In this document: piece by piece, positions 1-36,994 of the stretch
Layout of the letters: each line of letters starts with the position of its first letter
How positions within the stretch are numbered: position 1 is the first letter of the stretch
Assembly: GCA_030835135.1 (NCBI GenBank)
Contig: JAUQWO010000027.1
Location: 1-37,053, forward strand
Length of the DNA stretch: 37,053 nt
Direction: 5' to 3'
From: Bacteroidota bacterium
GTDB taxonomy: Bacteria > Bacteroidota > Ignavibacteria > UBA10030 > UBA6906
Translations under genes and position numbers: made by a program
Notes under the pieces: model-generated
Told to the model about the DNA's origin: nothing
Database searches by the model: none
Seen by the model: only the letters and a program-made list of their open reading frames with translations

Positions 1-261
1 CACGACCTGCACTACCTCGATGTGGCGCGCCTGCTGGTGCACGACACCAAATCCATGCTCGCTCTCCCGGGACGTCAGTACGATATGAAAGGGATCGGAT
101 GGCAGCAGGAAGGCTGGCGTATGGGTCCGGGCGGACCCGGCCGGGGGGTTGGGGGGCACCGGTTCTGGCTGCCATGGGTGTCTGCCAACCATCTGTACAG
201 CATCACCGGGCTGGAAGAATTCGATCCGGATCTGTATCAACAACTGGCGAATGGGAAATGA
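1..261 (+). CDS. C-terminal fragment of an unrecognised protein (5' end outside window)
   Basis: An open frame runs from the first base of the window to a TGA at 259-261 and gives 86 residues with no start codon that has to be used, so this is the tail of a gene beginning upstream. It is rich in Trp, Gly and aromatic residues (for example HRFWLPWVSANHLY) and has a Gly/Pro-rich stretch near its middle, but I do not recognise a family. Its stop codon overlaps the ATG of the following carboxylesterase in an ATGA arrangement, so the two are very likely co-transcribed and translationally coupled. By location it probably belongs to the same glycan-degradation cluster, but that is inference. Another reading frame covers the same bases; I chose this one because it ends exactly at the coupled start and its composition looks protein-like. 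Confidence 0.6.
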   Translation, partial: HDLHYLDVARLLVHDTKSMLALPGRQYDMKGIGWQQEGWRMGPGGPGRGVGGHRFWLPWVSANHLYSITGLEEFDPDLYQQLANGK

Positions 262-1814: not shown

Positions 1815-1946
1815 GATCGCGCCCCGGTGTGATCGAACTGCTTCCTGCACCCCCACCCGTGCGCACGGAACGGCACTTCTGAAGACGATATTGGTCCTTG
1901 ATGATATGTGCTCCGTAGTCAACTGTTCAGGAAAGGGATCCAAGGC

Positions 1947-6808: not shown

Positions 6809-6834
6809 CCGCGACTTTCCTGGAGGAGGTGTCC

Positions 6835-7273
6835 ATGAGAACTGCCTCGCTTGCTCTGCTTGTAGGGCTGATAGCCTCCGACTGTGTTGCTGGAGACAAA
6901 CCACGGCAAGTCCAATCATGTGATTCGGCCTGGCGATTTTGCGCAGGTGAAATCCCGGGCGCCGAACGGCCGGAATTCAACGATGCCGCATGGCTCAAGG
7001 TCACTGTACCCCATGACTGGAGCATTGAAGGCCTTGCTCCCTCGACAAAGAAAGTGGACGATCCTTCGGAGATCGCTGTTGTCATCGGCGAATGGAGATC
7101 TAGCAGGCAACGGCAACCCGATCAGTCACGAAGCATTCAAAGCGCGCGAGCGGAAGGCATTCCACGGTCTGTGTCTGGCAATCGTGCGATCACAACGCAA
7201 ACCAGGTGCGATCACCCTTTCTGCCTCTTCCGAAGGTCTCCAGGCGGAACAGATCGGAGTCCGGACGAAGTAG
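6835..7273 (+). pseudogene. Remnant of a second GH2 gene: 5' end fused out of frame to 3' end
   Basis: A perfect AGGAGGT (6824-6830) precedes ATG 6835, which opens a signal peptide and then a typical GH2 N-terminus (CDSAWRFCAGE, PEFNDAAW, VPHDWSIEG, the last motif shared with the intact GH2 next door). After about residue 70 the similarity ends. From about 7088, in a different frame (+1), the sequence reads as a GH2 C-terminus (AGNGNPISHEAFKARERKAF, then GAITLSASSEGLQ) and stops at 7271-7273. About 2 kb of gene (sugar-binding domain to catalytic barrel) is missing and the two ends are out of frame, so no working enzyme can be made. The junction lies somewhere in 7045-7088. The initial frame itself runs on to a TAG near 7288 with non-GH2 sequence. 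The C-terminal piece differs from that of the intact GH2, so this was a separate paralogue rather than a partial copy. Confidence 0.85.
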
Positions 7274-7300
7274 ATATCACCAGTGGATAGGCAGAACGCA

Positions 7301-9916: not shown

Positions 9917-9926
9917 GAGCAATGCC

Positions 9927-11552: not shown

Positions 11553-11613
11553 TCTTAAGGGAGGGGGGTGTGGTGACAGTTCATCCAATTGAACACAGAC
11601 AGGACAGAGTATC

Positions 11614-14160: not shown

Positions 14161-14307
14161 GCCCTCCCGTATCAGGATCGTGGTGGGGACAACGTCAGCG
14201 CCGGGACATGACCGGCCAACTTCCATCATTCGCACATCCAACGGGCCTGGTGGCAATGGACCCTGAGGAATATTGTCATTCATCCGTCCATCAAGCATGA
14301 GAAGAAT

Positions 14308-19087
<4,780 letters not shown>

Positions 19088-19171
19088 ACCGGCGGGGGCA
19101 GTTCGCCGTACACCGCGCGGTGTGCCGTACGCATGCGGCGCTATCGTCCACAGTTGATGAGAGTGATGACA

Positions 19172-20734: not shown

Positions 20735-20794
20735 GCAGCGGGTTGCTGAGGGGTGTGGTGGACCGCTGATCCTTCTGTCCTCTGTACTTCTCCT

Positions 20795-20830
20795 CCTCTT
20801 TGTGCCGTCGGCGCAGACGGCACAAAGAGG
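20795..20830. terminator. Perfect 15-bp stem hairpin between convergent genes
   Basis: CCTCTTTGTGCCGTC (20795-20809) is fully complementary to 20816-20830, with loop GGCGCA. It sits 60 bp past the GH51 stop and 137 bp past the DUF362 stop in the only convergent gap, the place for a bidirectional terminator. Neither side has a run of T, so the termination mechanism is uncertain. The rest of the gap (20735-20967) shows nothing else. Confidence 0.7.
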
Positions 20831-20967
20831 TGAGCGGGCATCGGTCACTCTACGGCCGGATCAACGGGACAGCGGCGGCGCGGACTGGTCGAGGTTCTAC
20901 CCGCCAGGGAGGCCACGTGTTTCCACCCGGATATGCGTGGTCGCCGAACCGGCAGTCCCTTTCCTGG

Positions 20968-22413
20968 CTATCGGACATAAAGGAGCTTGATGGTCTCGGA
21001 GAAGCCATCGGCCTGCATGCGACAGAAATAGGTTCCGCTGGGCAGGGCCTCGGGCGTCCAGACGACCTGATGGTCGCCCGCCGCATGCTCTTCATCCGTG
21101 AGCACCTGGATCCTCGCTCCGGTCACGGAGTAGATGGACAGCGAGACGTGACCGTTCCGGGGAACGGTGTATGCGATACGGGTTGCGGGGTTGAACGGGT
21201 TCGGAAAATTCGGGAGGAGCCGGTAGTTGTCCTGAGGCAGGCCGGTGGCACGTTCGGCAACGGAGGTGACGAGGTGCGTGCCGTCTCCCGTGAGGGTGAT
21301 CTCGGACCGCTTGTTCGTGCCTGCACCGCGGGCATTGAGCAGGGCGAGATGATTGTCGCATGTGGCTCCGCCTCCTTTCGGAAGTGGAAGCGTTGCGGCC
21401 TCGGCGTCGAGTCCCATCAGCTGTGCGCCGATGGTGTCGGTTGCGACGGGGTCCTTGCCGGCGATCAGGGCGTGGCGACGGGCGGGCGCGAACGTCGGAT
21501 TCCAGACGCCTTCGCCTCCCGTGGCATTGCGGATGCCATCGATCACCGCGAGGTGGACAGGTCGTGCCCTGTTGAGGTCGCACACGGAGCGGGGGAGATA
21601 GAGGGTTGAGGAACCGCCATCCGCACTGTGCAACGCGGAGCGATTCCCGGTATTCCCGGGGAGGGTATAGCCTGTGATGGGAACGATCCCGACCTGGTTC
21701 TTCAGCGAGCCGGAGAATCCGTTCTCGTAGTGGTGCTTCAGTTTCGGGATCGAGATGTACGTGTCGACCTCCGTGAGGATCCGGTTCATCGAGAACGACG
21801 CGAAGTTGTGATACGGTGCTCCGGTCGTCACGGTCGCGAGGTCCGGATACGGTGCGGCGGCACTGAGATTGATGAACTGGCAGCCGACCGCATTCTTCGC
21901 CGCGGTGAACCCGAAGGTGTCGGTCGCGCCGAACGGCGCGTTCGTCCCTGTATCCCACAGCGCCTCGACGATCGTGATGTTGCCCGGGGAGACACCGGCG
22001 TCGACAAGGAGTTCCGCCACGGCGCGCATCACCGCCGGATGTGTCCACATTGCCTCGGTGATCGGGACGCCTTTGAGTGCGGCGCTGCTCGCGCTGCCGG
22101 AGCCGCCGACAAGGTTGATCTTGATCGCCACTTTGGAGTCGGTACGGACAATGTCAGTGATCCCGCCGATCGCCTCGAACAACGCCTGGACCTGTGCCTT
22201 CACGGTGGCGACATCATAGGCATCCGCCGCAGTGGAACTGGTGTCGGCGATACCCACCGTGGCCAGAGATGTTGCTGCCATGTTCGCGAATGCGCTCCGC
22301 GGGATGAGGAGGGGCGAGAGGGCCATGCCGAATGCCGCGGTGCCGGCCGCACGGAGAAAATCACGGCGGCATACGTCGTTCGCATGGTACGGGCTGCTGT
22401 GTGATCGTTTCAT
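20968..22413 (-). CDS. Tat-exported DUF362 protein with T9SS sorting domain
   Basis: 481 residues on the - strand. The start at 22413 is chosen for an AGGAAAG about 7 bases upstream and because it opens a twin-arginine signal (CRRDFLRAAGTAAFG, Arg16-Arg17, ending near IPRSAFA). The frame stays open upstream but has no signal character. Residues about 85-380 are a DUF362 domain (VAIKINLVGG, HPAVMRAVAELL, PKLKHHYENGFSGSLKN, AGKDPVATDTIGAQLMG). The last 80 or so residues are a Por/T9SS type-A sorting domain (NFPNPFNPATRIAYTV to the end). DUF362 has no settled function; some relatives bind metal or Fe-S centres. The combination suggests a protein folded with a cofactor, exported by Tat, then placed on the cell surface. 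It is oppositely oriented to all other genes here, so its link to glycan use is unclear. Confidence 0.88.
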   Translation of the reverse strand: MKRSHSSPYHANDVCRRDFLRAAGTAAFGMALSPLLIPRSAFANMAATSLATVGIADTSSTAADAYDVATVKAQVQALFEAIGGITDIVRTDSKVAIKINLVGGSGSASSAALKGVPITEAMWTHPAVMRAVAELLVDAGVSPGNITIVEALWDTGTNAPFGATDTFGFTAAKNAVGCQFINLSAAAPYPDLATVTTGAPYHNFASFSMNRILTEVDTYISIPKLKHHYENGFSGSLKNQVGIVPITGYTLPGNTGNRSALHSADGGSSTLYLPRSVCDLNRARPVHLAVIDGIRNATGGEGVWNPTFAPARRHALIAGKDPVATDTIGAQLMGLDAEAATLPLPKGGGATCDNHLALLNARGAGTNKRSEITLTGDGTHLVTSVAERATGLPQDNYRLLPNFPNPFNPATRIAYTVPRNGHVSLSIYSVTGARIQVLTDEEHAAGDHQVVWTPEALPSGTYFCRMQADGFSETIKLLYVR

Positions 22414-22557
22414 ATGTGCGCTTTCCTGAAGTAGGGGACAGAGAGCCCGGCGGGTGTGAGGCGGCCCGGGGTCTCCTGTCCGATGATCCGGACCGAACGA
22501 CAAGGGCGGTTCCGGAGGACAGGCAGGGGCCGGGTTGCGGACCGGACGGGACAGCAG

Positions 22558-22586
22558 ATAATATGGGGTGTTTTTGACAATGTCAA
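22558..22586 (-). promoter_or_regulatory. Sigma70-like promoter for the DUF362 gene
   Basis: On the - strand, TTGACA (22586-22581) is followed after exactly 17 bp by TATTAT (22563-22558). Both boxes are near consensus. A transcript from here would have a leader of about 140 nt before the start at 22413. The -35 box lies inside the palindrome 22573-22587. Confidence 0.65.
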
Positions 22587-22587
22587 A
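22573..22587. promoter_or_regulatory. 15-bp palindrome TTTGACAATGTCAAA, candidate operator
   Basis: TTTGACA and TGTCAAA flank a single central A, a perfect inverted repeat in the divergent DUF362/lacI gap. It covers the -35 box of the DUF362 promoter and lies upstream of the lacI -33 element. It differs from the TGAACCGG boxes, so it could bind another regulator. Confidence 0.45.
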
Positions 22588-22602
22588 CTTTGGTTTTAGT
22601 TC

Positions 22603-22633
22603 TTGCTTTTTGATGTCGAATCCTGTATACTTG
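22603..22633 (+). promoter_or_regulatory. Promoter of the LacI-family regulator gene
   Basis: TTGCTT (22603-22608), 17-bp spacer, TATACT (22626-22631). Read as a Bacteroidota-type promoter it is TTG, then 23 bp start-to-start, then TATACTTG (22626-22633), close to the known TAnnTTTG -7 element. The receptor-gene promoter at 31617 has the same spacing. The operator at 22632 overlaps its downstream end. Confidence 0.65.
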
Positions 22634-22643
22634 AACCGGTTCA
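22632..22643. promoter_or_regulatory. LacI-type operator TGAACCGGTTCA (autoregulatory site)
   Basis: Perfect 12-bp palindrome with a central CG, the form typical of LacI/GalR operators. It overlaps the end of the -7 element and the expected transcription start, 51 bp before the regulator's GTG, so binding should repress lacI itself. Related boxes occur at 23798 and 31646. Confidence 0.7.
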
Positions 22644-22694
22644 TTTCTATCTGTCAAAGTACAGAAGAAGAACCCAAACGAGGAAGGGAGAAGA

Positions 22695-23753
22695 GTGTCA
22701 GCAAAGAAGGTCACCATCTCGGATGTAGCGCGCCGCGCGAAGGTGTCGAAGGGAACCGTCTCGGCAGTGATCAACGGCAAGTCGAACGTCAAGTCCTCCA
22801 CCCGCGACCACATCCTGGAGTTGATGAAGGAGATGAACTACCGGCCGAAGGGGACGGCGCGGAATCTTCGTGGCGAACAGCCCGAAAAGAGCATCGGATT
22901 GATCCTGAAGGACATTTCCTATCCCTTCTACACGGCGATCGCTGCCGGCGCGAAGGAGTACGCCGCATCGAAGGGATATGCGGTGGTTGTCGCCGGATCG
23001 GATGATGATGTGGAGAACGAGAAAAAACTGACGCGGTTGTTCTCGGCGAAGGACATCAAAGGTGCGATCATCGCCCCCGTGGTCGCCGGCACCGCCGAGT
23101 TCGAGCACCTCTACATGCTGAAGATGGTGAACTATCCGTTCGTGTTGCTGGAAGACGTGCAGGGGATCCAGGCGAATGTCGTTGCGATCGATAATATCAA
23201 AGCCGTCAAGCGTGCGGTGAAGTATCTGATCGAGAACGGTCATCAGCGCATCGTGCATTTCGCCGGTCCGCCGCATTCCTCGCACACGCTGGAACGCGTG
23301 GAAGGATTCCGCTACGCCTTCAGCGAGAGCCCGCTGGTCTTCGGTAAGGAGAATGTCGTCTACGCCGGCTCGCATTACGAGGAAGCCTATCAGAAGACGA
23401 TGGAGTATTTCAACGGACGACCACGCTCCGAGTATCCGACCGCGATCGTTTGCTTCAACGATCATCAGGCGCTTGCGGTGATGTGCGCCCTGCGCGAACT
23501 GAAGATCCGCATGCCGGAAGATATCTCGCTGGTCGGCATCGACGATATCTACTACGCGCAGATGTACCCGATCCCGTTGACGACGATACGTGCGCCGCAA
23601 CACGATATCGGTATGAGGGCAGCCGAGATCCTGATCCGGAACATCGAGTCACAGCACATCCTCCCGATCGAGCGCGTCGTGCTGGAAACTGAATTTGTGA
23701 TCCGCGAGACCACCCGGGCGTTCAGCGCTCCTGCAACCTCCTCACCGGCCTGA
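22695..23753 (+). CDS. LacI/GalR-family transcriptional regulator
   Basis: 352 residues from a GTG start with a strong AGGAAGGGAG (22681-22690) upstream. The N-terminal helix-turn-helix (VTISDVARRAKVSKGTVSAV, about residues 6-25) and hinge (NYRPKGTARNLRG) are standard for LacI repressors. Residues about 60-340 form the periplasmic-binding-protein-like effector domain (IGLILKDISYPFYTAIAAGA, VGIDDIYYAQMYPIPLTTI). The effector sugar cannot be read directly; being next to xylA, a xylose-containing oligosaccharide or xylose is likely. The perfect palindrome in its own promoter implies autoregulation, and matching boxes before xylA and the receptor gene suggest a local regulon. Using a LacI repressor here contrasts with the hybrid two-component or SusR-type regulators usual for Bacteroides polysaccharide loci. 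Confidence 0.93.
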   Translation: MSAKKVTISDVARRAKVSKGTVSAVINGKSNVKSSTRDHILELMKEMNYRPKGTARNLRGEQPEKSIGLILKDISYPFYTAIAAGAKEYAASKGYAVVVAGSDDDVENEKKLTRLFSAKDIKGAIIAPVVAGTAEFEHLYMLKMVNYPFVLLEDVQGIQANVVAIDNIKAVKRAVKYLIENGHQRIVHFAGPPHSSHTLERVEGFRYAFSESPLVFGKENVVYAGSHYEEAYQKTMEYFNGRPRSEYPTAIVCFNDHQALAVMCALRELKIRMPEDISLVGIDDIYYAQMYPIPLTTIRAPQHDIGMRAAEILIRNIESQHILPIERVVLETEFVIRETTRAFSAPATSSPA

Positions 23754-23763
23754 GACAGCAAAA

Positions 23764-23794
23764 CACGGCAACAGAGGCCTCTCGCAGTGCCGTG
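23764..23794 (+). terminator. Hairpin after the lacI gene
   Basis: CACGGCA (23764-23770) pairs with TGCCGTG (23788-23794). The 17-base loop contains its own AGAGGCCTCT palindrome. It starts 10 bp past the regulator stop and ends just before the xylA operator region. No T-run follows, so it is a weak terminator candidate. Confidence 0.35.
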
Positions 23795-23797
23795 AAT

Positions 23798-23829
23798 TGA
23801 ACCGGGTCAATGATGGTTTGACTGATTCA
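23798..23829. promoter_or_regulatory. Tandem LacI-type boxes upstream of xylA
   Basis: Box 1, TGAACCGGGTCA (23798-23809), matches the perfect lacI palindrome at 11 of 12 positions. Box 2, TTGACTGATTCA (23818-23829), is a weaker 8 of 12 match. Their centres are 20 bp apart, the same distance as the pair before the receptor gene. The downstream sequence to 23889 contains TTAGATTG, but I cannot assign a promoter with confidence. Confidence 0.6.
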
Positions 23830-23889
23830 TTTATGTTAGATTGATTTTTTCCATGAGTCGCACCCACTAGAGAATGAAGGCAACCTCCC

Positions 23890-25203
23890 ATGGCCTACTT
23901 CCCCGATGTCCCCTCACCGATCCCGTTTGAAGGTCGTGATTCGAAGAACCCTCTCGCGTTCAAATGGTATGACAAGGGCAGGAAGGTCGGGACGAAGACC
24001 ATGGCCGACCACCTGCGCTGTTCGGTGGCGTACTGGCATACCATGAAGGGATCCGGCGCCGACATGTTCGGTGCGCCGAGCATGCAGCGTGCGTGGAGCA
24101 ACGGCGGGTCACCGATGGACATCGCACGGAAGACCCTCGATGCAACGTTCGAGTTTCTCCAGAAACTCGGCGTCACGTACTATTGCTTCCACGACCGTGA
24201 CATCGCGCCTGCGGGTGCCACGTTCGCGGAGAGCTGCCGGAACCTGGAGGCGATCGCCGGAGAAGCGAAGCTTCTGCAGAAAGAGACCGGCATCAGATTG
24301 CTGTGGGGAACCGCGAACCTCTTCGGCGATCCGATCTATGGGCAGGGCGCCGCGACAAGTCCGAACGCCGCGGTCATGGCCCGTGCCGCGGCCCAGGTGA
24401 AACTCGCCATCGATGTGACCCAAATGCTCGGCGGCGAGAACTACGTGTTCTGGGGGGGGCGGGAAGGGTATGAGACCCTCCTCAATACCGACATCCGGCA
24501 TGAACAGGATCAGATGGCACGCTTCTTCCGGATGGCCGTCGACTACAAAAAGCAGATCGGGTTCACGGGACAGTTCCTGATCGAGCCCAAGCCGGCGGAA
24601 CCGTCGAAACACCAGTATGATTTCGACGCGGCAACCACACTCGGCTTCCTCCGCGCGTACGGACTGACCGACCATTTCAAGCTCAATATCGAGGCGAATC
24701 ACGCCACGCTGGCGGGACATACCTTCGAGCATGAACTCGCCGTGGCCTCCGCGGCGGGTGCGCTCGGCAGCGTCGATGCCAACCGCGGCGATCTCCTGCT
24801 TGGCTGGGACACGGACCAGTTCCCCACGGATGTCTACAGTGCGACGTTTGCGATGATGATCATCCTGCAGCAGGGTGGCCTCGGCACGGGCGGACTCAAC
24901 TTCGATGCAAAAGTGCGCCGGAGCTCCACCGACACGCTCGATCTCTTCCACGCGCACATCGGTGGCATGGATACCTTTGCCCGCGGGCTGCTGATCGCCC
25001 ACGAGATCATCAGCGACGGAGTCCTCGCTCAGCATCTCGCGAACCGGTATGCCAGCTTCGCGTCCGGCATCGGGAAGGACATTATGGATGGCACGGTCGG
25101 CCTTGCCGACATCTACCAGCGCGAACGTGAATCCCAGGATCCCGTGCTGACGAGCGGCAGGCAGGAGATGCTGGAGAATCTCATCAACTCCTATATCAGG
25201 TGA
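23890..25203 (+). CDS. xylA: Xylose isomerase
   Basis: 437 residues, essentially the length of class II bacterial xylose isomerases. It converts D-xylose to D-xylulose in the cytosol. Key residues fall on their usual numbers: His101 and Asp104 in FHDRD, and metal ligand Glu232 in EPKPAEPSKHQYDFD. The other conserved blocks are present: FWGGREGYETLLNTD, LNIEANHATLAGHTFEHEL, and GSVDANRGDLLLGWDTDQFP. No signal peptide. A GAAGG stretch precedes the ATG, and LacI-type boxes lie 61-92 bp upstream. The GH3 gene follows after 12 bp, so they form an operon. Xylulokinase, the next step, is not in this window. Its presence shows that xylose is an end product of the polymer broken down by the left-arm enzymes. 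Confidence 0.97.
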   Translation: MAYFPDVPSPIPFEGRDSKNPLAFKWYDKGRKVGTKTMADHLRCSVAYWHTMKGSGADMFGAPSMQRAWSNGGSPMDIARKTLDATFEFLQKLGVTYYCFHDRDIAPAGATFAESCRNLEAIAGEAKLLQKETGIRLLWGTANLFGDPIYGQGAATSPNAAVMARAAAQVKLAIDVTQMLGGENYVFWGGREGYETLLNTDIRHEQDQMARFFRMAVDYKKQIGFTGQFLIEPKPAEPSKHQYDFDAATTLGFLRAYGLTDHFKLNIEANHATLAGHTFEHELAVASAAGALGSVDANRGDLLLGWDTDQFPTDVYSATFAMMIILQQGGLGTGGLNFDAKVRRSSTDTLDLFHAHIGGMDTFARGLLIAHEIISDGVLAQHLANRYASFASGIGKDIMDGTVGLADIYQRERESQDPVLTSGRQEMLENLINSYIR

Positions 25204-25215
25204 GGCCCTCGCCCC

Positions 25216-27540
25216 ATGGCAACTCTCGATGACATTTCCACTGCCGGGGTCGGGCAGTCGACCGCACGTGCACACTACAAAGATCACCGGCGTCCGATCG
25301 ATGAACGCGTGGAGGATCTTCTCGGGCGCATGACGCTCGAGGAAAAGGTCGCGCAGATGATCTGCGTCTGGCACCAGAAAGATGTTCAGGTACTGAACAG
25401 CGATGGCAAACCCGATGTCTGTGTCGTGCAGAAGCACCTGCCGTCCGGTGTGGGACAGATCGCGCGCCTCAGCGATACGAACGGGGGTTTGACACCCCGG
25501 CAGACCGCCGAGTTCGCGAACGAGATCCAGCGGATCTTCGTCGAGCACACGCGTCTGGGCATTCCGGTGATCTTCCATGAGGAGTGCCTGCATGGTCTTG
25601 CGGGACGCGATGCGACGAGTTTTCCCCAGCCGATCGGCCTCGCGGCAACCTTCGATCCGGATCTCGTCGAAGAGATCTATGCCGGCGTCGCCGCCGATGT
25701 CCGGAGCCGGGGCGCACATCAGGCGCTCACCCCCGTGCTCGACGTGGCCCGCGAGCCGCGGTGGGGGCGCGTGGAAGAGACGTTCGGCGAGGATCCCTAT
25801 CTCGTCTCCCGTATGGGCATCGCGGCCGTGCGTGGATTCCAGGGGGATGCATCGTTCCGCGACCGCAAGCATCTGATCGCCACGCTGAAGCATTTTGCCG
25901 CACACGGGCAACCGGAGTCCGGGACCAATTGTGCCCCCGTCAATGTGTCGGAACGCCTGTTGCGCGATACGTTCCTCTATCCGTTCCGGGAAGTCCTGAC
26001 CCATGCCAACGCCCACAGCGTGATGGCCGCCTACAACGAGATCGACGGCGCGCCCTCGCATGCGAACCCGTGGCTGCTGCGTGATGTCCTCCGCACGGAG
26101 TGGGGGTTCGCCGGGACGGTCGTGTCGGACTACTACGCGATCACCGAATTGCACCAACGCGAGGAAGCCACCAGCCATGGCGTGGCGGGCAGCAAAGCAG
26201 AGGCCGCGCTCCTCGCCGTGAAGGCTGGTGTGAACATGGAATACCCGGAACCCGATTGCTATCCGTCGATCGCACAGCTGGTGCGCGAGGGCGCACTCGA
26301 AGAGTCAACGATCGACGAATTGGTGAGGCCGTTGCTGTACCAGAAGTTCCTCCTCGGACTCTTCGAGGATCCGTTTGTCGATCCATCAGCACTCGACCCC
26401 GATCGGACGCTGGCAGAGGAACGGTCGCTTGCCCGGCGCGCTGCCCGTGAGACGATCACGCTCCTCAAGAATGAGGGGGCGCTCCTCCCCCTGGACCCGG
26501 CGAAGTACCGGACGGTGGCGGTGATCGGACCGAATGCGGACCGCATCCTGCTCGGGGGGTACAGCGGTGTCCCGCGCTACACGTCAACTGTCCTGGACGC
26601 GATCCGGGACCGGATCGGCAAGGAGTGCACGGTTCTCCATAGCGCCGGCTGCAGGATCACGGAAGGGGGAAGCTGGAATGAGGACGCGGTGCATCTCCCG
26701 GACCCGGCAGGGGAGGAACAGCGCCTGGCGGAAGCGGTCTCCGTCGCACGCAAGGCCGACCTGGTAGTGCTCGTGGTCGGCGATAACGAGCAGACGTCGC
26801 GTGAAGCGTGGAACCGTGCCCACATGGGCGACCGGACAAGTCTGGATCTGTTCGGCAGGCAGGGCGATCTCGTCAAAGCGATGGTGGCGACCGGCAAGCC
26901 GGTGGCCATGGTCCTCTTCTGCGGACGTCCGCACTCCCTGACATTCGCGCATCAACATGTTGCGGCGATCATGACGTGCTGGTATCTTGGTCAGGAGGCG
27001 GGCCATGCGGTCGCTGACATACTCTTTGGCGATGTCAACCCCTCGGGGAAGCTGCCGATCTCCTTCCCGCGGTCGGTCGGCCACGTGCCGTGCTACTACA
27101 ATCACAAGCCTTCGGCACGAAGGGGATACCTCTTCGACGATTCGACGCCGCTGTATCCGTTCGGATTCGGTCTGAGTTATACCCACTTTTCTCTGGCGAA
27201 CATCAGCCTCGCTGCACCCTGCATCGGGACCGGCGAATCCACGAGCGTGACCGTGGATGTGACGAATACCGGAGACCGGGAAGGAACCGAGGTCGTTCAG
27301 CTGTACATCCGCGACGTCGTTGCCTCTGTCACACGACCGGTCAAGGAACTCCGGGGTTTCAGGCGAGTGACGCTCGGGGCGGGGGAAACCACGCGTGTCA
27401 GCCTGCCCATCACCCCGGATCTGCTCGGCTTCACGACCATCTCGGGCGAATGGAAGGTTGAACCCGGTGAATTCCGCATCATGGTCGGATCGTCTTCAAA
27501 GGACGAGGACCAGATCAGCGTCGCGTTGTCCGTGCGCTGA
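25216..27540 (+). CDS. Cytosolic glycoside hydrolase family 3 beta-glucosidase/beta-xylosidase
   Basis: 774-residue GH3 enzyme 12 bp after xylA. No signal peptide: the N-terminus is hydrophilic and leads straight into the (alpha/beta)8 domain (RVEDLLGRMTLEEKVAQM). Catalytic nucleophile is Asp305 in VVSDYYAI; the substrate-binding block LKHFAAHGQPESG and the motif GRVEETFGEDPYL are intact. The second alpha/beta domain starts near 420 (LLKNEGALLPL), and a fibronectin-III-like domain ends the protein (VTVDVTNTGDREGTEVVQLY). GH3 removes terminal beta-glucose or beta-xylose. A cytosolic place next to a sugar symporter and xylA suggests it splits imported short oligosaccharides such as xylobiose or cellobiose. 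Which sugar it prefers cannot be settled here. Confidence 0.93.
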   Translation: MATLDDISTAGVGQSTARAHYKDHRRPIDERVEDLLGRMTLEEKVAQMICVWHQKDVQVLNSDGKPDVCVVQKHLPSGVGQIARLSDTNGGLTPRQTAEFANEIQRIFVEHTRLGIPVIFHEECLHGLAGRDATSFPQPIGLAATFDPDLVEEIYAGVAADVRSRGAHQALTPVLDVAREPRWGRVEETFGEDPYLVSRMGIAAVRGFQGDASFRDRKHLIATLKHFAAHGQPESGTNCAPVNVSERLLRDTFLYPFREVLTHANAHSVMAAYNEIDGAPSHANPWLLRDVLRTEWGFAGTVVSDYYAITELHQREEATSHGVAGSKAEAALLAVKAGVNMEYPEPDCYPSIAQLVREGALEESTIDELVRPLLYQKFLLGLFEDPFVDPSALDPDRTLAEERSLARRAARETITLLKNEGALLPLDPAKYRTVAVIGPNADRILLGGYSGVPRYTSTVLDAIRDRIGKECTVLHSAGCRITEGGSWNEDAVHLPDPAGEEQRLAEAVSVARKADLVVLVVGDNEQTSREAWNRAHMGDRTSLDLFGRQGDLVKAMVATGKPVAMVLFCGRPHSLTFAHQHVAAIMTCWYLGQEAGHAVADILFGDVNPSGKLPISFPRSVGHVPCYYNHKPSARRGYLFDDSTPLYPFGFGLSYTHFSLANISLAAPCIGTGESTSVTVDVTNTGDREGTEVVQLYIRDVVASVTRPVKELRGFRRVTLGAGETTRVSLPITPDLLGFTTISGEWKVEPGEFRIMVGSSSKDEDQISVALSVR

Positions 27541-27587
27541 GGCCGGTGCATCCACAGCAGGATCCACAGCAACCATGTGAGGTGGCA

Positions 27588-29075
27588 GTGCAGGGAACAC
27601 AGAAACTCTCGGTCGGCGAGAAGATCGCCTACAGCCTTGGCGACGGTGCAGCGAACTTCGTCTTCATGACGATGATCCTGTTCCAGTTGAGCTTCTATAC
27701 CGACACCATGGGTCTCGCCGCCGGCGTCGCAGGGACGTTGTTGCTCGTCGGGCGCTTCTGGGATGCGTTCTTCGATCCGTTGATGGGGACGATCGCGGAC
27801 CGGACGAACACCCGGTGGGGGAAATTCCGTCCGTGGGTCCTGTGGACCGCCCTGCCCTGGGGGATCGTCATGGTCCTCGCCTATACGGTGCCGGATTTCG
27901 ATATGACCGGCAAGATCGTGTGGGCGCTCCTGACGAACATGCTCCTGATGACATTGTATTCCGCCAACAACACGCCGTATGCGGCAATGACGGCAGTGAT
28001 GACGGGCGATGTGCACGAACGGACGAGCCTGTCCGCATACCGTTTCGTCTCCGTGACCGTTGCTCAACTGCTCGTCGGCGGCTTCACCCTGCCTCTGGTG
28101 CTGAAGCTCGGGCAGGGCGACTCGGCGAAGGGATGGCAACTGACGATGGGGATCTGGGCCGTGGTGTGTGTGGTGGCGTTCGTGATCACGTTCCTGGCCA
28201 CGCGCGAACGGATCCCGCCGGTCACCGAACAGAAGGTGTCGGTCAAGGAGGACTTCGGCAACCTCCTGAAGAACGGTCCGTGGATCGCGATGTTCATCCT
28301 CACGCTCGCACATTTTCTCGTCCTTGCGATGCGTGGCGGGACCGTGTTCTACTTCTTCCAGTACTATGTGGACCGGACAAGTCTGTTCACGTTCCTGCAG
28401 CACTGGGGACTCACCACCGTGGGGGTGCATGAAGGCGGCGTGGGCGTGTGGTTGCTCGACACGTTCGGCCTGGTCGTCGATCCCGCGCAGACCAATGTGT
28501 CGTCCGTCGGGTTCAGTCTGCTGAACATCAGCAGTCAGGTCTTCACCATGATCGGTGTCGCCTTTTCGACGGCGCTCTCGGTGCGGTTCGGCAAGAAAGC
28601 GGTGGCGATCGCAGGCTTCAGCATCACCACGGTGTTCATGGCCGCCTTCATCGTCCTGCCGGCGAATGCGATCTGGTCGATCTATATCACCGAATGGCTG
28701 CGGGCACTCAGCTACGGGCCGACCATCCCGCTCATCTGGGCGATCTTCGCGGATGTGGCGGACTACGCCGAGTGGAAGTTCAACCGGCGCTCGACCGGCG
28801 TCATCTATGCGACGATCCTGTTCGGCCTGAAAACCGGACTCAGTCTGGGTGGCTTCCTCGCCGGCGCGATCCTTTCCTTCTATGGCTACCGAGCGAACAT
28901 GGTGCAGACGGCGGAAGCGTTGGTCGGCATCCGGCTCGCGATCAGTGTGTATCCGGCAGTGTTCTTCGGTGTCGTGATCGTGTGCTTGCTCTTCTATGGC
29001 ATCTCAAAACAGATGAACCTGCAGATCCAGGACGAACTTGCGGAACGACGCCGGCTCGCGGCACCGCATGCATGA
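27588..29075 (+). CDS. GPH-family (glycoside-pentoside-hexuronide) sugar:cation symporter
   Basis: About 495 residues with roughly 12 hydrophobic segments, a major-facilitator protein of the GPH group (relatives include the melibiose carrier MelB and XylP, which carries isoprimeverose and xylosides). Family marks are the N-terminal KIAYSLGDGAANFVF, the loop IADRTNTRWGKFRPWVLW and YSANNTPYAAM. A GTG start at 27588 is preferred because GAGG lies about 5 bases upstream and the protein then begins directly before the family's N-terminal motif. An in-frame GTG at 27546 would add 14 residues. An ATG at 27575 is out of frame. It sits 47 bp after GH3 and presumably moves mono- or disaccharides across the inner membrane for GH3 and XylA. 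Confidence 0.9.
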   Translation: MQGTQKLSVGEKIAYSLGDGAANFVFMTMILFQLSFYTDTMGLAAGVAGTLLLVGRFWDAFFDPLMGTIADRTNTRWGKFRPWVLWTALPWGIVMVLAYTVPDFDMTGKIVWALLTNMLLMTLYSANNTPYAAMTAVMTGDVHERTSLSAYRFVSVTVAQLLVGGFTLPLVLKLGQGDSAKGWQLTMGIWAVVCVVAFVITFLATRERIPPVTEQKVSVKEDFGNLLKNGPWIAMFILTLAHFLVLAMRGGTVFYFFQYYVDRTSLFTFLQHWGLTTVGVHEGGVGVWLLDTFGLVVDPAQTNVSSVGFSLLNISSQVFTMIGVAFSTALSVRFGKKAVAIAGFSITTVFMAAFIVLPANAIWSIYITEWLRALSYGPTIPLIWAIFADVADYAEWKFNRRSTGVIYATILFGLKTGLSLGGFLAGAILSFYGYRANMVQTAEALVGIRLAISVYPAVFFGVVIVCLLFYGISKQMNLQIQDELAERRRLAAPHA

Positions 29076-29081
29076 CCGATG

Positions 29082-29106
29082 GCCGGGCCGACCCGTGCGG
29101 CCCGGC
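29082..29106 (+). terminator. GC-rich 9-bp stem hairpin after the symporter gene
   Basis: GCCGGGCCG (29082-29090) is fully complementary to CGGCCCGGC (29098-29106), with a 7-base loop, starting 7 bp after the symporter stop. A smaller CCCTCC/GGAGGG hairpin follows at about 29135-29149 and would occlude the next gene's SD. No T-run follows either. Probably an operon end or partial terminator. Confidence 0.5.
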
Positions 29107-29151
29107 ATGACGTGGTGACGAAGACCCCCCGGGTCCCTCCCCGGGAGGGCA

Positions 29152-31536
29152 ATGGTTGCGCACCTTAGCGGACGTGGTTGGGCAATGACCAGAACACTCC
29201 GGCATCAGCGATCGATACTGCTGGCCCTGCTCTCGATGGCGATCCTCTCGCTCGAGGTGATCGCCACGCGTCTTGCCTCCGTGATCTTCGTCAGCGACCG
29301 GGCATACATCATCCTGTCCGTGGGCATCCTCGGGCTGGGAGCCGGTGGGTTCATCGCTCACGTGCGCGAGCAGAAGGGGAATGCGGGGGGGAGCTTCAGT
29401 CCCTGGCAGCTGTTCCTGCTTCTGGGCATCGCTCTTGCACTCTTTGCCGCGATCGTCACCACTCCCGCTGCCACATCACCAGTCGTCATTCTGCCCCTCC
29501 TCCTCATTCCGTTCGTGATCGGGGGATACCTGTCCGCCCGTCTGTACCGGGGTGCGTCGGGCTGGGGCTCCCTCGCATACGCTTCGGACCTCGCCGGCGC
29601 GGTGATCGGTGCGCTCGCATCGCTCTGGATCATCAACACGTTCGGCGGCGTGAATGCTGTCCTCTGCATCACCCTCGTCGCGTGGGGCGGGGCGGGCATT
29701 GCCCTCGCATTCGATGGAAGGAAGAGGGCAGGTGCCCTCGCGGCGGTGCTGGTGCTTTCGGCGTTCGCCGGTCTGTGGTCGGTGGGACAGAAGCGGATCC
29801 TCGGGGACGTGCCGATCGGTGTCGCCCCGGAAAAGGATTTCTACTCCGTCTATGATGACCCGGGGGCGCGCCCGACGATCATCGACAGCCGCTGGAGCGT
29901 GTTCGGGAGGGCAGACCTCGTCGCCTATGGTCATCAGGATATGGTGATGCAACTCTTTGTCGATGGATCTGCCGGTTCCCAGGTGTATCGCTTCAACGGA
30001 GATATCCATCATACCAATCCATTCCTTCATGAACTGCTGCTCCACCACACGAACGCCATCCCGTTTCTCTGTCTGCCGGACTCGGCGAAACGGCGCATGC
30101 TGGTGATCGGTCCGGGGGGAGGGAAGGACGTGCTGCTCGGACTCCTGGGAGGGGCCGGGAGCATCCGTGCGGTGGAAGTGAACCCGGATTTCGTCGCGAT
30201 GGTCCGGGACCATGGGTCGTATACGGGTGGGATCTACACGGACTTCGCCAACGTCTCGGTCGTCGTCGATGAAGGGCGCCGTCACGTTCAGCGGATGCGC
30301 GACACCGTCGACCTCATCGTGATGGCGCTGCCGTCCACGGCACAGGTGCAGGGGATCGAGGCGTTCGCCACGAACGAGAATTTCCTGCTGACGCGCGAGG
30401 CGTTCAAGGAGTATGCCCGGGTCCTTTCACCGTGGGGCGCCATCGTTCTCACCGTGCACAATTCCTGGGAACTCGCACGGGTCCTCGTCACTGCGGTCGC
30501 CATGTTCCAGGATGCAGGCGTGCCGGCAGGAGAGATCCCGCATCATTTTGTGATGCTCGAATCGGAGTACGCACCGACGATCGTGATCGGCAAGACGGCG
30601 TTCTCGCCCGGAGAGGCTGCCCGCTGGCGCGATGTGTGCACGCGCCTCCGGGCGGATTATCCGCGGGTCACCTATCTTCCGCATGACATGCTGGGGGAGA
30701 ACCCGTCGGCGATGTCCGGTTTTCTCCGCGTCATCGCACAATCTCCGATGGCGCTTCAGACGGCGGTGGACCGGAACCCGGTCCAGATCGCACCGTGTAC
30801 CGACGACAGTCCTTACTTTTATAACCGCTTCCGGACCGGTCCGCGTGAACTGCACTGGCTCCTTGCCTTCATCGGCTTCTGGTGCCTCGTCGTTGCCCTC
30901 GTTGCACTTCTGCGACGGCGGTCAGGGATGCATCAGCAGACAGCTCATGTGGGTGTGTTGCCGGAATGGATCGCACTGTGCGCGGGAGCGGGGTTCATGA
31001 TCGTAGAGGTGTCGTTGCTGCAGAAGCTCGTCCTGTGGGTGGGTACACCCACCACATCCCTCGCGATCCTGTTGTCGGTACTACTGACGGGGGCGGGTAT
31101 CGGCAGTCTCATCTCGAGCGCACTGTCGTCCACGCTCAGGCCTCTCAGGGTGCTGCTCATCGCCCTGACCGCGATCATTGTCCTTGGCGTCTGTCTGGTC
31201 GTCGCGTCGCCATATGTTCTGTCCCTCGTCATTGATGGCAGCGATGGATCCCGGTTGGGGGCAGTAGCGGTACTCCTGCTGCCACTTGCCGTGGCGCTGG
31301 GCATTCCCTTTCCGGTGGCCCTTGGCATGCTCACAGATGCAGGGCGTGAACGGTCCATCCCGAGGTTGTATGCTCTGAGCTGTTCGTTCGGTGTCCTGGG
31401 GTCTGTTCTTGCCATCCTGCTATCGGTGGTCTGGGGGTTCACCGCCGCCATCGTGGTAGGCCTTGCATGGTATGGTGTGCTGTTCGTTCCGGCAACCAGG
31501 GTATGGCAGGGATCGGATGCGGGGAGGGGAAAATGA
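29152..31536 (+). CDS. Membrane-fused spermidine-synthase-like protein
   Basis: 794 residues. The N-terminal third (about 20-215) has some seven hydrophobic segments. The middle (about 235-560) is a Rossmann-fold methyltransferase-like domain of the spermidine/spermine synthase type, with the nucleotide-binding loop LVIGPGGGKDVLLG near residue 317 and acidic AVEVNPDF after it. The C-terminal third (about 565-785) has about six more membrane segments. Such fused proteins are common in bacterial genomes but their substrate is not established, so polyamine synthesis should not be assumed. Start 29152 follows GGGAGGG very closely (2-3 bases); ATG 29185 is an alternative directly before the first membrane segment. 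Why it sits between a sugar symporter and a TonB receptor is unclear. Confidence 0.8.
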   Translation: MVAHLSGRGWAMTRTLRHQRSILLALLSMAILSLEVIATRLASVIFVSDRAYIILSVGILGLGAGGFIAHVREQKGNAGGSFSPWQLFLLLGIALALFAAIVTTPAATSPVVILPLLLIPFVIGGYLSARLYRGASGWGSLAYASDLAGAVIGALASLWIINTFGGVNAVLCITLVAWGGAGIALAFDGRKRAGALAAVLVLSAFAGLWSVGQKRILGDVPIGVAPEKDFYSVYDDPGARPTIIDSRWSVFGRADLVAYGHQDMVMQLFVDGSAGSQVYRFNGDIHHTNPFLHELLLHHTNAIPFLCLPDSAKRRMLVIGPGGGKDVLLGLLGGAGSIRAVEVNPDFVAMVRDHGSYTGGIYTDFANVSVVVDEGRRHVQRMRDTVDLIVMALPSTAQVQGIEAFATNENFLLTREAFKEYARVLSPWGAIVLTVHNSWELARVLVTAVAMFQDAGVPAGEIPHHFVMLESEYAPTIVIGKTAFSPGEAARWRDVCTRLRADYPRVTYLPHDMLGENPSAMSGFLRVIAQSPMALQTAVDRNPVQIAPCTDDSPYFYNRFRTGPRELHWLLAFIGFWCLVVALVALLRRRSGMHQQTAHVGVLPEWIALCAGAGFMIVEVSLLQKLVLWVGTPTTSLAILLSVLLTGAGIGSLISSALSSTLRPLRVLLIALTAIIVLGVCLVVASPYVLSLVIDGSDGSRLGAVAVLLLPLAVALGIPFPVALGMLTDAGRERSIPRLYALSCSFGVLGSVLAILLSVVWGFTAAIVVGLAWYGVLFVPATRVWQGSDAGRGK

Positions 31537-32038: not shown

Positions 32039-35000
32039 ATGCGACATTCACGCGTTCTGTTCGCACTTGCTGTCCTCGTCATCGCCGTTACGGGCCTGGC
32101 AACCGCCCAGCAAACGTCCGGCCAGATCGAGGGCTTCATCGCCGATTCTCTCTCCCACGAACGATTGACGGGAGCGAATGTCTGGATCGATGGGACGGGG
32201 ATGGGAGCGGTCACCAACCTTGACGGAAGGTACGTGATCACCAACGTGCCGCAAGGCAGCTATACCCTGATCGTCCGTTACATCGGGTATCGTGCCAAGC
32301 GGCAGCAGGTGGTCGTGACGGCAGGGGAGATCCTCAAGCGGGATTTCGCCATGATCCCCGAGGCCCTGGAAGGAGAGACCTTCCTCGTTCTGGCGCAGGC
32401 GCGAGGCCAGCAGGAAGCCATCAATCAGCAACTCTCCTCGAGCACGATCACGAATGTGGTCTCATCGGAGAAGATCCATCAGCTGCCCGATGCGAACGCG
32501 GCCACGGCGCTCAGCCGCCTCCCCGGCGTGTCGCTGATGAACGGCGACCAGGTGGTCATCCGCGGTATGCAGGCGAAACTCAATACGGTTCTGATCAACG
32601 GCATCCAGATCCCGTCCACCGATATGAATGACCGGTCGACGAACCTTGGCTTTATTTCCTCCAACCTGCTGTCCGGGATCGAGGTCATGAAAGTGCTGAC
32701 CCCCGACCGTGATGCGAACACGCTGGGTGGTTTGGTGAATCTGCGCTTGCGGGAAGCCCCCACCGGGTTCCATGGCGACCTGTTCGCCCAGGGGAACTAT
32801 AACACGCAGGACCGTGTGTCGGACAACTACAAGTTCTGGGGAAGCGTCAGCTCGCGGTTCCTTGATGATAACCTCGGGATCTTCGTCCAGGGAAGTGCCG
32901 ATCGTTCGGATATCGGTCAGGACATCGCGGCGGCGACGTACGGCATCAATGGTGCGGGTTCCATCCGGTACGGTGAAGCCCCCTACCAGATGAACCAGTT
33001 CACATTTCAGGACCAATGGAATGTGATCACCAACAGCAGCGCCAGCGTGATCATCGATTATGTCCTCCCGCACGGGAAGATCCTGTTCTCGAACACGTTC
33101 GCGAATAATCTGAGCGACAACACCACGTTCCGGAACCGCCTCGATCTTGAACAGACCGTCGTGGGCTACACCCTGAGCCGCGACAAATACGGCAAGGCCC
33201 TGATGATCAATGCCCTCCAGGGGGAGTACAATTTCGGCGATCTGAAGGCTGAGCTCTCGCTGTCCCATTCCCTCTCGAACAAATACACGCGCGTCCGGTA
33301 TGGTGATCCCGGCACAAATTTCACGTTCGAGAACCAGGCACACCGTCCGTTCGGGGTCGATCCGGCGAGCGGCCTTGCGATCAATTACGTCTCCCAGCGG
33401 CGCTTCATGACCCCGGAGGACGTGTATGGGATCACGATCGATCCCAATGATGCCCTTGGTGCGAAGGTAGGGGGATGGGTCATCTCGCGCTCCGAGGCCT
33501 TTGATCAGCATGTGTACAATACCGCTCTGGATTTCACACTGCCGGTGACGCTGTCGGAAGACATCACAACCAAGATCAAGTTCGGCGGAAAGTTCTCGCG
33601 ATCGGCACGTGCCAACGACGTGGAGTCGACGTTCAAGGGCTCTTCAGACGACGACTACTATAACGCCACCCGGTCCTTCTTCCCGAACCACCAGGGGCTG
33701 TCGGCAGCCAATCCGGTTCTGTTCGGGGATCTCTGGGACCGCGGCTTCACACGCGGCGACTACTTTCTGAAGGGCGACTATCCGTTCAAGTACGCATATG
33801 ACCGCGATCTGATGGATCAGTATATGGGCACCTCGATCTCGGGCTGGGCGGTGGCGCGACACAAGCCGTCGTCGGAGCGGGACGATTGGGGTGGGGCTGA
33901 GATCTATTCGGCCGGATATCTGATGGGTTCGTTCGACTTCGGACCCATGGTGTCCCTCATCGCCGGCGGTCGCTATGAGCACTACAACATGCAATACCAT
34001 TCGAAGTTCGTGTACGTCACGCACTCGGTGTATGGGTATGCGAACCTGTACGATACGCTGAACACCGTGGACCGCAGCGACAACGACTTCTTCCCGAATG
34101 CCCAGCTCCGGTACCGGGTCAATGAATGGTCGGATATCCGGCTGGCGTACTCGAAGGGCATCGCGCGACCCGACTTCCGGGCCGTCATGCCGAGCATCTA
34201 TCTCGAACCGGGCGGGGGAGCACAGGCAGGCAACACGAAATTGCGGCCGGCCCTTTCGGACAACCTGGACGTGATGGTTTCGGTGTACAGTGGCGACGTC
34301 GGGTTGTTCACCGTTGGCGGGTTCTACAAGAAGATCCGTAACTTCTTCTATCAGACGGACATCTTCTACCAGAACCTGGGGTACTACAATGCGTCGTTCC
34401 CGGATTCGATGACGTTCGCAGCGCTGGGTATCAAGCCCGCCGGCATGCCCACACCCTCGCAGCGTATCACGACGTTCCTGAACAACCCGAATCCGGCGTA
34501 TGTCCGTGGATTCGAACTCGAATGGCAGACCAACTTCTGGTATCTCCCGGTGCCGTTCAACAGCCTGGTGCTGACGGTCAACTATACGAAGTCGTGGTCG
34601 GACATGGATTACCAGCAGATCAGGAACATCGACTCCGCCTATCAGGACCCGACCAACCCCCGTATCACCCGCCATAAGTACATCACCATCGACACCGTAC
34701 GCAATGCACGTCTGCTGTTCCAGTCGGATGACGTCATCAACGTCGCCCTCGGCGTCGACTACAAGGGGTTCTCCGGACGTCTGTCGTTCAACATGCAGGG
34801 GAACATCATCACGACCGTGGGTGCACGGCCGGAAGATGACCAGTTCACCGGCAATATCTACCGTTGGGATCTTACGCTTCAGCAGCAGCTCCCCATCGAA
34901 GGCTTCCGCGTCATCTTCGACGCGGTCAATCTCTTCCACAATGCCACGTATACATACCAGAAATTCCGGCGTGTCAGTGATGGCGAGATCCTTGAGAATC

Positions 35001-35059
35001 TTCAGTCGACAGCCTATTCACCGCGGTTCATTCAGCTCAGTCTGCGCTATAGCATGTGA
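32039..35059 (+). CDS. TonB-dependent outer-membrane receptor, glycan-uptake type
   Basis: 1006 residues. ATG 32039 opens a signal peptide (MRHSRVLFALAVLVIAVTGLATAQ). Residues about 28-112 are a carboxypeptidase-D regulatory-like domain (GANVWIDGTGMGAVTNLDGR). The plug spans about 125-235 (LPDANAATALSRLPGVS, QVVIRGMQAKLNTVLINGIQ, LTPDRDANTLGGLVNLR), then a 22-strand-type barrel ending in an aromatic-rich tail (RFIQLSLRYSM). The plug resembles TonB receptors of the Xanthomonas/Caulobacter carbohydrate type more than classic SusC, and no SusD gene follows. It should import oligosaccharides with TonB energy. LacI-type boxes at its promoter tie it to the xylose regulator. The next gene, a surface protein, lies 156 bp downstream and may be its partner. 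Confidence 0.92.
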   Translation: MRHSRVLFALAVLVIAVTGLATAQQTSGQIEGFIADSLSHERLTGANVWIDGTGMGAVTNLDGRYVITNVPQGSYTLIVRYIGYRAKRQQVVVTAGEILKRDFAMIPEALEGETFLVLAQARGQQEAINQQLSSSTITNVVSSEKIHQLPDANAATALSRLPGVSLMNGDQVVIRGMQAKLNTVLINGIQIPSTDMNDRSTNLGFISSNLLSGIEVMKVLTPDRDANTLGGLVNLRLREAPTGFHGDLFAQGNYNTQDRVSDNYKFWGSVSSRFLDDNLGIFVQGSADRSDIGQDIAAATYGINGAGSIRYGEAPYQMNQFTFQDQWNVITNSSASVIIDYVLPHGKILFSNTFANNLSDNTTFRNRLDLEQTVVGYTLSRDKYGKALMINALQGEYNFGDLKAELSLSHSLSNKYTRVRYGDPGTNFTFENQAHRPFGVDPASGLAINYVSQRRFMTPEDVYGITIDPNDALGAKVGGWVISRSEAFDQHVYNTALDFTLPVTLSEDITTKIKFGGKFSRSARANDVESTFKGSSDDDYYNATRSFFPNHQGLSAANPVLFGDLWDRGFTRGDYFLKGDYPFKYAYDRDLMDQYMGTSISGWAVARHKPSSERDDWGGAEIYSAGYLMGSFDFGPMVSLIAGGRYEHYNMQYHSKFVYVTHSVYGYANLYDTLNTVDRSDNDFFPNAQLRYRVNEWSDIRLAYSKGIARPDFRAVMPSIYLEPGGGAQAGNTKLRPALSDNLDVMVSVYSGDVGLFTVGGFYKKIRNFFYQTDIFYQNLGYYNASFPDSMTFAALGIKPAGMPTPSQRITTFLNNPNPAYVRGFELEWQTNFWYLPVPFNSLVLTVNYTKSWSDMDYQQIRNIDSAYQDPTNPRITRHKYITIDTVRNARLLFQSDDVINVALGVDYKGFSGRLSFNMQGNIITTVGARPEDDQFTGNIYRWDLTLQQQLPIEGFRVIFDAVNLFHNATYTYQKFRRVSDGEILENLQSTAYSPRFIQLSLRYSM

Positions 35060-35215
35060 TCAGCGCGGAGACGTAGCGCCCGCGCGCGGTATGCGGCATC
35101 GTGGTCACCAATTCAGAGTCAGGTATCGTGAACAACACACGGAGGGTGAAGGCTCGTGAATGGTACGTCAGTCTCTACCAGTCCTTCAATAACCAGTCAG
35201 ATTTAGGAGGATTCC

Positions 35216-36994
35216 ATGAAGAAGCTGCTAATACTCTCGATGTTGCTGTTGCTTCTCGCAAGCATGGCGGTGTCCCAGACCCTGATGGATTATGTTTCCG
35301 CGGTCAGCGGGGATACGCTTGTCATTAAGGATTTCGTTGAGATGGGCAATCAGCCGAACTCACTGTACAACGCCATGTTGCTGGACTCGTTGAACGTTCC
35401 GGCCGGCCGCGTGTACAAGCTGAAGGTCAATGGTACCTATCCACTCGTCAATTCGCCGAACACCGTCCGGCCCGTGACGATCGTGGGTGGCGACGCGACG
35501 ATCCTCGTGAACAACACGAACGCCGCATCGGCCCCGCCGCTTATCTGCGGTTCGACCTATGAGGGCGGTGCGAATACCGGTGGCATCAACTATTCGTACG
35601 ACCTGACCGTGAAGAACTGCAGCGTCATTCCGGCAACGGCGGCGCGTGACCTCGGCTGGAACTTCTTCTGGTCAAACGGCCAGAACGCAAAGCTGACGCT
35701 GGACAATGACTACCTCGAACGTACCCGGTGGGTTCTCTTCGCCAGCAGCGCCTCCGGTCAGCGGTATCTTATCAAGAACTGCTACTTCGTGAACCTGAAT
35801 GGCCAGCCCTGCCGCCGTAATGGCGGTGTGTATGATGCCTTCGCCTTCATGGATTCCATGTGGGTCGAGAACTGCACCCATATCATGACACAGGGCATGA
35901 TGTACAAGTTCCGTCAGTATCCGTTCAAGCGCGTCGTCATGAACCACAATACCTTCATCAACTGCTCCGGCAATATCTATCTGGATTGGGGCTATCAGAC
36001 GAATGTCAGCAACACCAACAATATCTATGTGAACTGCAACGTTCAGGCATATCCCGGGATCTCCACCATCGATGTCGGCGAACAGGATCTCGACGGCCTG
36101 CCGATGGGCCTCGTCAATCTGCATACGTTCCCCGATCCCGATTCGTCCTATGACCAGTACAGAGCACTTCCGAGGAAGTATCTCTTTGAAGGAAACGTCG
36201 TTTACTGGGATCCGAAACTCAGCAGCGTCGTCTCCACGTTGAACACGAACCACGTGAATGGTGTCACGAACTGGCAGGACCAGATGATCATCATGAACTC
36301 GCGCACAACCGCGATGTTCAACGACAATAGCACCTATCCGTACCTCACACTGGGCACGAACTACACGGAAGCGCCGGTCTTCACGGATCCGAAGACGCTT
36401 ATGACGACGGAGGTGGATAATCTCAAGGCGTTCACCATCGCGACGTGTGACACGAACAGCACGGATGTCCTTCCGGACTGGCGCGTGACGAACGTCGGAA
36501 ATGACTTCTACGTCTATTCGGACTGGCCGATCCCGGTCAATCTCGCCTACAGCAACGCCACACTGTTGACGGGCGCGACGGGCGGATTCCCGGTCGGCGA
36601 TCTGAACTGGTTCCCCGTGAGGAAGACCCAGTGGAACGCCCAGCGGACCGCAGAGTACACCGCGATCGATCAGGCCCTCAATACCGGTGGCAGGACGATC
36701 ACGGCCGTCCCCACGGACGCGAACGCTCCGGTGGAGTTCAGCCTTGCGCAGAACTATCCGAACCCCTTCAACCCGAGCACCAAGATCTCCTTCTCCATCG
36801 CGAAGAGTGCCGTCACCACGCTGAAGGTCTTCAATGCTCTCGGACAGGAAGTGGCGACACTGGTCAATGGTATCATGCCGGCAGGTACGCATGATGTCAG
36901 CTTCAATGCCTCCGGCCTGGCCTCGGGCATGTATTTCTATCGCCTGACCAGCGGCGCAGCGACGCAGATGAAGCAGATGGTGATCCTGAAGTAG
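35216..36994 (+). CDS. T9SS-exported surface protein, probable beta-helix, possible glycan binder
   Basis: 592 residues. AGGAGG (35205-35210) precedes ATG 35216 and a signal peptide (MKKLLILSMLLLLLASMAVSQ). Residues about 22-500 are rich in Asn, Thr, Ser and aromatics with recurring short strands (LTVKNCSVI, YLIKNCYFVNLNG, VWVEN/VVMNHNTFINCSGNIY), the look of a right-handed parallel beta-helix of the pectate-lyase-like class. I see no catalytic set I would trust. Residues about 513-592 are a T9SS type-A sorting domain (NYPNPFNPSTKISFSI, then GQEVATLVNG and SGMYFYRLTSG). Export through T9SS would place it on the outer surface. Located after the TonB receptor where SusD normally stands, it may bind or cut glycan for the receptor; this is inference. 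Confidence 0.85.
   Translation: MKKLLILSMLLLLLASMAVSQTLMDYVSAVSGDTLVIKDFVEMGNQPNSLYNAMLLDSLNVPAGRVYKLKVNGTYPLVNSPNTVRPVTIVGGDATILVNNTNAASAPPLICGSTYEGGANTGGINYSYDLTVKNCSVIPATAARDLGWNFFWSNGQNAKLTLDNDYLERTRWVLFASSASGQRYLIKNCYFVNLNGQPCRRNGGVYDAFAFMDSMWVENCTHIMTQGMMYKFRQYPFKRVVMNHNTFINCSGNIYLDWGYQTNVSNTNNIYVNCNVQAYPGISTIDVGEQDLDGLPMGLVNLHTFPDPDSSYDQYRALPRKYLFEGNVVYWDPKLSSVVSTLNTNHVNGVTNWQDQMIIMNSRTTAMFNDNSTYPYLTLGTNYTEAPVFTDPKTLMTTEVDNLKAFTIATCDTNSTDVLPDWRVTNVGNDFYVYSDWPIPVNLAYSNATLLTGATGGFPVGDLNWFPVRKTQWNAQRTAEYTAIDQALNTGGRTITAVPTDANAPVEFSLAQNYPNPFNPSTKISFSIAKSAVTTLKVFNALGQEVATLVNGIMPAGTHDVSFNASGLASGMYFYRLTSGAATQMKQMVILK

Follow-up and report, generated by a model that had tools for sequence, protein, structure and literature searches.

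The receptor and the surface protein gene behind it

The window analysed here, the whole stretch of 37,053 nucleotides, corresponds to contig C80 in an assembly of 4.9 Mb and 88 contigs. It terminates with a TonB receptor gene followed on the same strand by the gene of a candidate surface protein, and 59 bp remain between the stop codon of the latter and the contig end. The features of the locus are the following:

99..31536, + strand: co-directional neighbours, namely esterases, two GH31, GH2, GH43, GH9 and two alpha-L-arabinofuranosidases, and further a LacI regulator, a xylose isomerase, GH3, a GPH symporter and a membrane spermine-synthase-like protein
32039..35059, + strand: TonB-dependent receptor, TIGR01782-like, from ATG 32039 to stop 35059, 1006 aa
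32126..32383, + strand: CarboxypepD_reg-like N-terminal domain, receptor residues 30-115 (PF13715, 5.7e-18)
32435..32728, + strand: Plug domain, receptor residues 133-230 (PF07715, 3e-12)
35205..35210, + strand: strong Shine-Dalgarno AGGAGG of the surface protein gene
35216..36994, + strand: T9SS beta-helix surface protein, proposed partner of the receptor, from ATG 35216 to stop 36994, 592 aa
35216..35275, + strand: signal peptide, residues 1-20 (predicted from sequence)
35294..36613, + strand: right-handed beta-helix body, residues 27-466 (AlphaFold2 model; PL6 C-terminal domain, Z 28.7)
36596..36616, + strand: GDLNWFP signature, residues 461-467, near-invariant among 64 homologues
36755..36985, + strand: T9SS type A sorting domain, residues 514-590 (PF18962, 6e-10; TIGR04183, 1.4e-11)

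The receptor is composed of a signal peptide, a CarboxypepD_reg-like domain, a Plug and a TonB barrel. Its best family is TIGR01782, the Xanthomonas/Caulobacter type, with 305.2 bits, just below the curated cut-off of 310, while it falls far below the cut-off of the SusC/RagA model TIGR04056 (47 bits vs 368). TIGR01782 was matched by all 48 of 48 paired receptors (best 1.7e-118), which agrees with the likeness of the plug to proteobacterial receptors pointed out in the first-pass annotation. As judged by its AlphaFold2 model (pLDDT 89.8), this protein is an ordinary TonB transporter; the nearest folds are HasR, BtuB and FecA, and BtuB1 of the BtuB-BtuG complex was also retrieved (Z 36.6).

The surface protein gene starts after an intergenic gap of 156 bp, in which no terminator-like site or inverted repeat was found, and no promoter or terminator signal exceeded the shuffled background. 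Gln21, located at the predicted signal-peptidase site, is kept in 61 of the 64 homologues, and the lipoprotein cysteine is absent there. Since this residue fits the Q-rule followed by Bacteroidetes SPI substrates (PMC5837995), its conservation speaks against the surface protein being a lipoprotein. At the other end, the Por_Secre_tail passes threshold (TIGR04183, 44 bits vs a cut-off of 23) and is present in 64/64 aligned homologues. T9SS export is plausible because the machinery is encoded in the same genome (SprA, about 1070 bits; PorU, 965 bits). In this context, signal peptide and T9SS tail suggest a surface location.

The enzyme families encoded upstream of the pair point to xyloglucan or arabinoxylan as the putative cluster substrate. 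The membrane spermine-synthase-like protein (29152-31536, 794 aa) lies upstream of the receptor, and about a dozen related loci have a homologue of it behind the pair; in the clade closest to the window, such a homologue also occurs in the extended cluster. In this clade, the body gene is followed by one for a PpiC-type PPIase-domain protein of about 590-640 aa (L083:9902-11656, L077:6139-7935, L073:6237-8153 and 12 more loci), possibly the third component of the module. In some of these loci the PPIase gene is followed by a glucuronoyl esterase with a T9SS tail, and this combination (domain PF22244) was found in the cluster of the pair at L087:11703-14093 and L073:8153-10531. Since the contig ends so close behind the body, this downstream arrangement is not visible in the window; a PPIase homologue is encoded on contig C38 of the same genome.

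Fold and conserved residues of the surface protein body

The body had been described in the first-pass annotation as beta-helix-like from its sequence, with structure prediction proposed as a check. AlphaFold2 returned a confident right-handed beta-helix (pLDDT 91.2, pTM 0.81). Pfam gave no domain match within the body of the window protein; among the 64 homologues, 25 matched Beta_helix, and weak matches to DUF5123 (5/64) and DUF4957 (1/64) were obtained. Among solved structures, that of the C-terminal domain in the PL6 lyase BcAlyPL6 is nearest in fold (Z 28.7, 2.5 A over 292 residues). This match came from the VIA second look, Foldseek alone giving mostly matches to the Ig-like tail and none at E 0.001. 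The body sequence profile also finds the PL6 C-terminal domain (E 2.5e-13), covering only residues 445-693 of 7dmk. Relatives were thus found only in the non-catalytic beta-helix of PL6 enzymes and, by weak matches of a few members, in DUF5123/DUF4957. No unrelated structural family came up, clear homology to which would have refuted the proposal according to the first-pass annotation.

Polysaccharide lyases or related enzymes are common among right-handed beta-helices. With PL6 entries as the closest solved relatives and a few near-invariant polar residues in the 64-homologue alignment (D57, R65, D213, H244 and D462), one could expect a surface lyase, epimerase or esterase that trims the glycan, the receptor importing the products. 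However, the PL6 catalytic features, a Lys/Arg and Ca-binding acidic residues, belong to a domain that was not matched; the C-terminal domain that was matched is, in AlyGC, a dimerisation domain partly covering the active site (PMC6879350). A PL6 lyase identity was rejected because the matched domain is the non-catalytic one. In addition, the invariant lyase-type Lys/Arg/Glu set is absent from the body: none of its Lys or Glu residues is near-invariant, and the single conserved Arg (55/64 homologues) sits near the N-terminus. The H244-N245-T246 motif resembles an Asn-ladder turn, and such ladders occur in PL6 helices (PMC6879350). Finally, the body family is found beside differing pathways, which fits a scaffold better than a single chemistry. 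An enzymatic role therefore seems unlikely to us.

We give slightly less weight still to a partner that never touches the glycan, acting as a structural surface protein or as an assembly or stability factor of the receptor, with which it would be co-transcribed for biogenesis. It would account for conservation peaking in the GDLNWFP signature and the Asn-ladder turns instead of an obvious binding groove, and the PPIase-domain protein next in the cluster in the window's own clade is in line with it. Nevertheless, beta-helices typically face carbohydrates, and from one paralogue to another the body sequences vary strongly (19-25% identity to the window body), as expected of a part that determines specificity.

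As to the signature itself, GDLNWF was found in 106 of 115 body proteins, and the corresponding GDLNWFP DNA pattern has exactly 5 matches in the genome, one per body gene, with 0 for the control. A plasmid search with the body gave no match.

Pairing within the genome and in other genomes

T9SS tails occur at about 150 places in this genome. Matches to the T9SS tail alone left aside, the body has four paralogues, on contigs C37, C22, C13 and C28, all immediately preceded by a close receptor paralogue. As determined from listed match coordinates, with gene ends partly estimated, 5/5 bodies are directly behind a TIGR01782-type receptor vs about 2/144 of the other T9SS-tail genes (hypergeometric chance about 4e-8).

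A profile built from the five own-genome bodies was searched in genomes of the class and in named loci. It matched 48 of 197 class genomes and 80 named loci, the record labels being Ignavibacteria, Melioribacter, Balneola, Rhodothermia, Saprospiraceae, Bacteroidales, KSB1, Kryptoniota and Neomarinimicrobiota. Looked for in this way, in other Ignavibacteria-type genomes as the first-pass annotation had advised, the pair was kept and the surface gene proved co-conserved with the receptor: where enough upstream DNA was present, a receptor was directly upstream on the same strand in 67/74 named and 26/28 class-sampled loci, two counts that are not independent because some loci are the same DNA. 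In the single-contig genome G153, a receptor precedes all eight listed bodies, at a distance of up to about 0.3 kb for seven of them and of about 1.7 kb for the eighth. Across 59 complete pairs, the receptor-body gap ranged from -40 to 387 bp.

Receptor and body trees of these 59 pairs correlate with r 0.86 (permuted maximum 0.11), much of which could be shared ancestry. The nearest neighbour is identical in both trees for 40/59 pairs, while agreement on the nearest own-genome partner is limited to 40 of 54 cases. Nine body genes lack a receptor immediately upstream; some of them lie in CAZyme clusters and one (L074) shares its contig with a complete pair. Three close receptor paralogues on contig C31 (L033:8728-11697, L034:4382-7600 and L035:8507-11485) are without a beta-helix neighbour. 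Because of these unpaired genes on both sides, receptor and body are not strictly interdependent.

With about 150 T9SS-tail genes in the genome and a pair at a contig end, the surface gene might have been a coincidental neighbour unrelated to the receptor, a very improbable reading that we rejected on the own-genome adjacency control and on co-conservation elsewhere (93/102 loci for both counts together, shared DNA included).

A candidate uptake module without SusD

No SusD is encoded in the window, and PF07980 and PF14322, two models that were positive on a Bacteroides control, found none in the entire genome; a SusD hidden elsewhere in the genome was rejected on this basis. The claim that the receptor is followed by a T9SS beta-helix protein instead of SusD thus holds. 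PF07980 went undetected in 32 of the 48 module genomes, so the module is often without SusD, yet able to coexist with it.

The first-pass annotation had suggested an alternative surface capture module. The recurrence of the pair, the lack of SusD in the genome and the carbohydrate neighbours support the module, standing in SusD's place; as to capture, we infer glycan binding, formation of a receptor-partner complex and a capture or lid action. On balance we favour a SusD-less glycan uptake module made of a TIGR01782-type receptor and a beta-helix protein delivered by T9SS as its dedicated surface partner. The TonB receptor would be the outer-membrane gate. The beta-helix protein would be exported by Sec, cross the outer membrane via T9SS using its C-terminal sorting domain, and be retained on the surface as the extracellular partner of the receptor. 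There it could capture arabinoxylan or xyloglucan fragments and pass them to the barrel, or cap it, with GDLNWFP proposed as a receptor-facing or structural docking element. Given how many related bacteria carry the two-gene pair, we regard it as a probable, so far unrecognised route by which plant sugars are caught for import. More tentatively, it could represent a widespread, undescribed class of glycan transporters in which a TIGR01782-type TonB receptor has a T9SS beta-helix instead of a lipoprotein as its lid or capture subunit, doing the job of SusD in SusD-poor lineages.

The proposed module resembles SusC/SusD (RagA/RagB) by its TonB gate with a CarboxypepD_reg-like N-terminus, by a surface partner encoded directly behind and by the CAZyme cluster. 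It differs by its receptor, TIGR01782-like and not TIGR04056, and by its partner, a T9SS beta-helix in a genome without SusD instead of an alpha-helical TPR lipoprotein. Plug and barrel are closest in sequence to the family of the proteobacterial TIGR01782 TonB-Xanth-Caul receptors, from which the present receptor differs by the CarboxypepD_reg-like N-terminal domain and the presence of a partner. To our knowledge, the proteobacterial receptors operate without a dedicated surface partner. Likeness to the PL6 alginate lyases BcAlyPL6 and AlyGC is confined to the C-terminal beta-helix fold and a remote sequence match over the body, which here stands alone with a T9SS tail, without a lyase domain and with an extra C-terminal GDLNWFP segment.

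A dedicated surface partner other than SusD is also found with the TonB transporters of BtuB-BtuG and XusA-XusB. BtuG, however, is a surface lipoprotein that binds vitamin B12, whereas the partner here is a T9SS beta-helix encoded in a glycan locus. SusD and BtuG illustrate that unrelated lids can serve TonB barrels (PMC7618045, PMC10404256), and the best reading of the beta-helix partner is by analogy with either of them, being related to neither. In the xylan locus of Rhodothermus marinus, the TonB receptor Rmar_1070 is followed by Rmar_1071, annotated as a 'hypothetical protein' and carrying a Por sorting domain; both are predicted to be co-transcribed with the xylanase Xyn10A, and the locus also holds a SusC/SusD pair (PMC6987092). 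Its likeness to the present pair is one of gene arrangement, compared by the published locus table alone. Apart from this apparent, unnamed pair, no description of the receptor/beta-helix pair or of the body family was found in the literature.

Polysaccharide capture in the Bacteroidota group is mostly modelled on SusC/SusD. A conserved receptor-partner pair built from unrelated parts and using another export route would account for the uptake of plant glycans by Ignavibacteria-type degraders poor in SusD, and would unite T9SS export and TonB uptake in a single machine. GDLNWF would then serve annotators as a marker for such loci.

The reverse gene order was also observed. In four cases in the same genome, G000 (contigs C88, C74, C63 and C38), a T9SS-tail gene immediately precedes a TonB receptor, and this arrangement may be another association.
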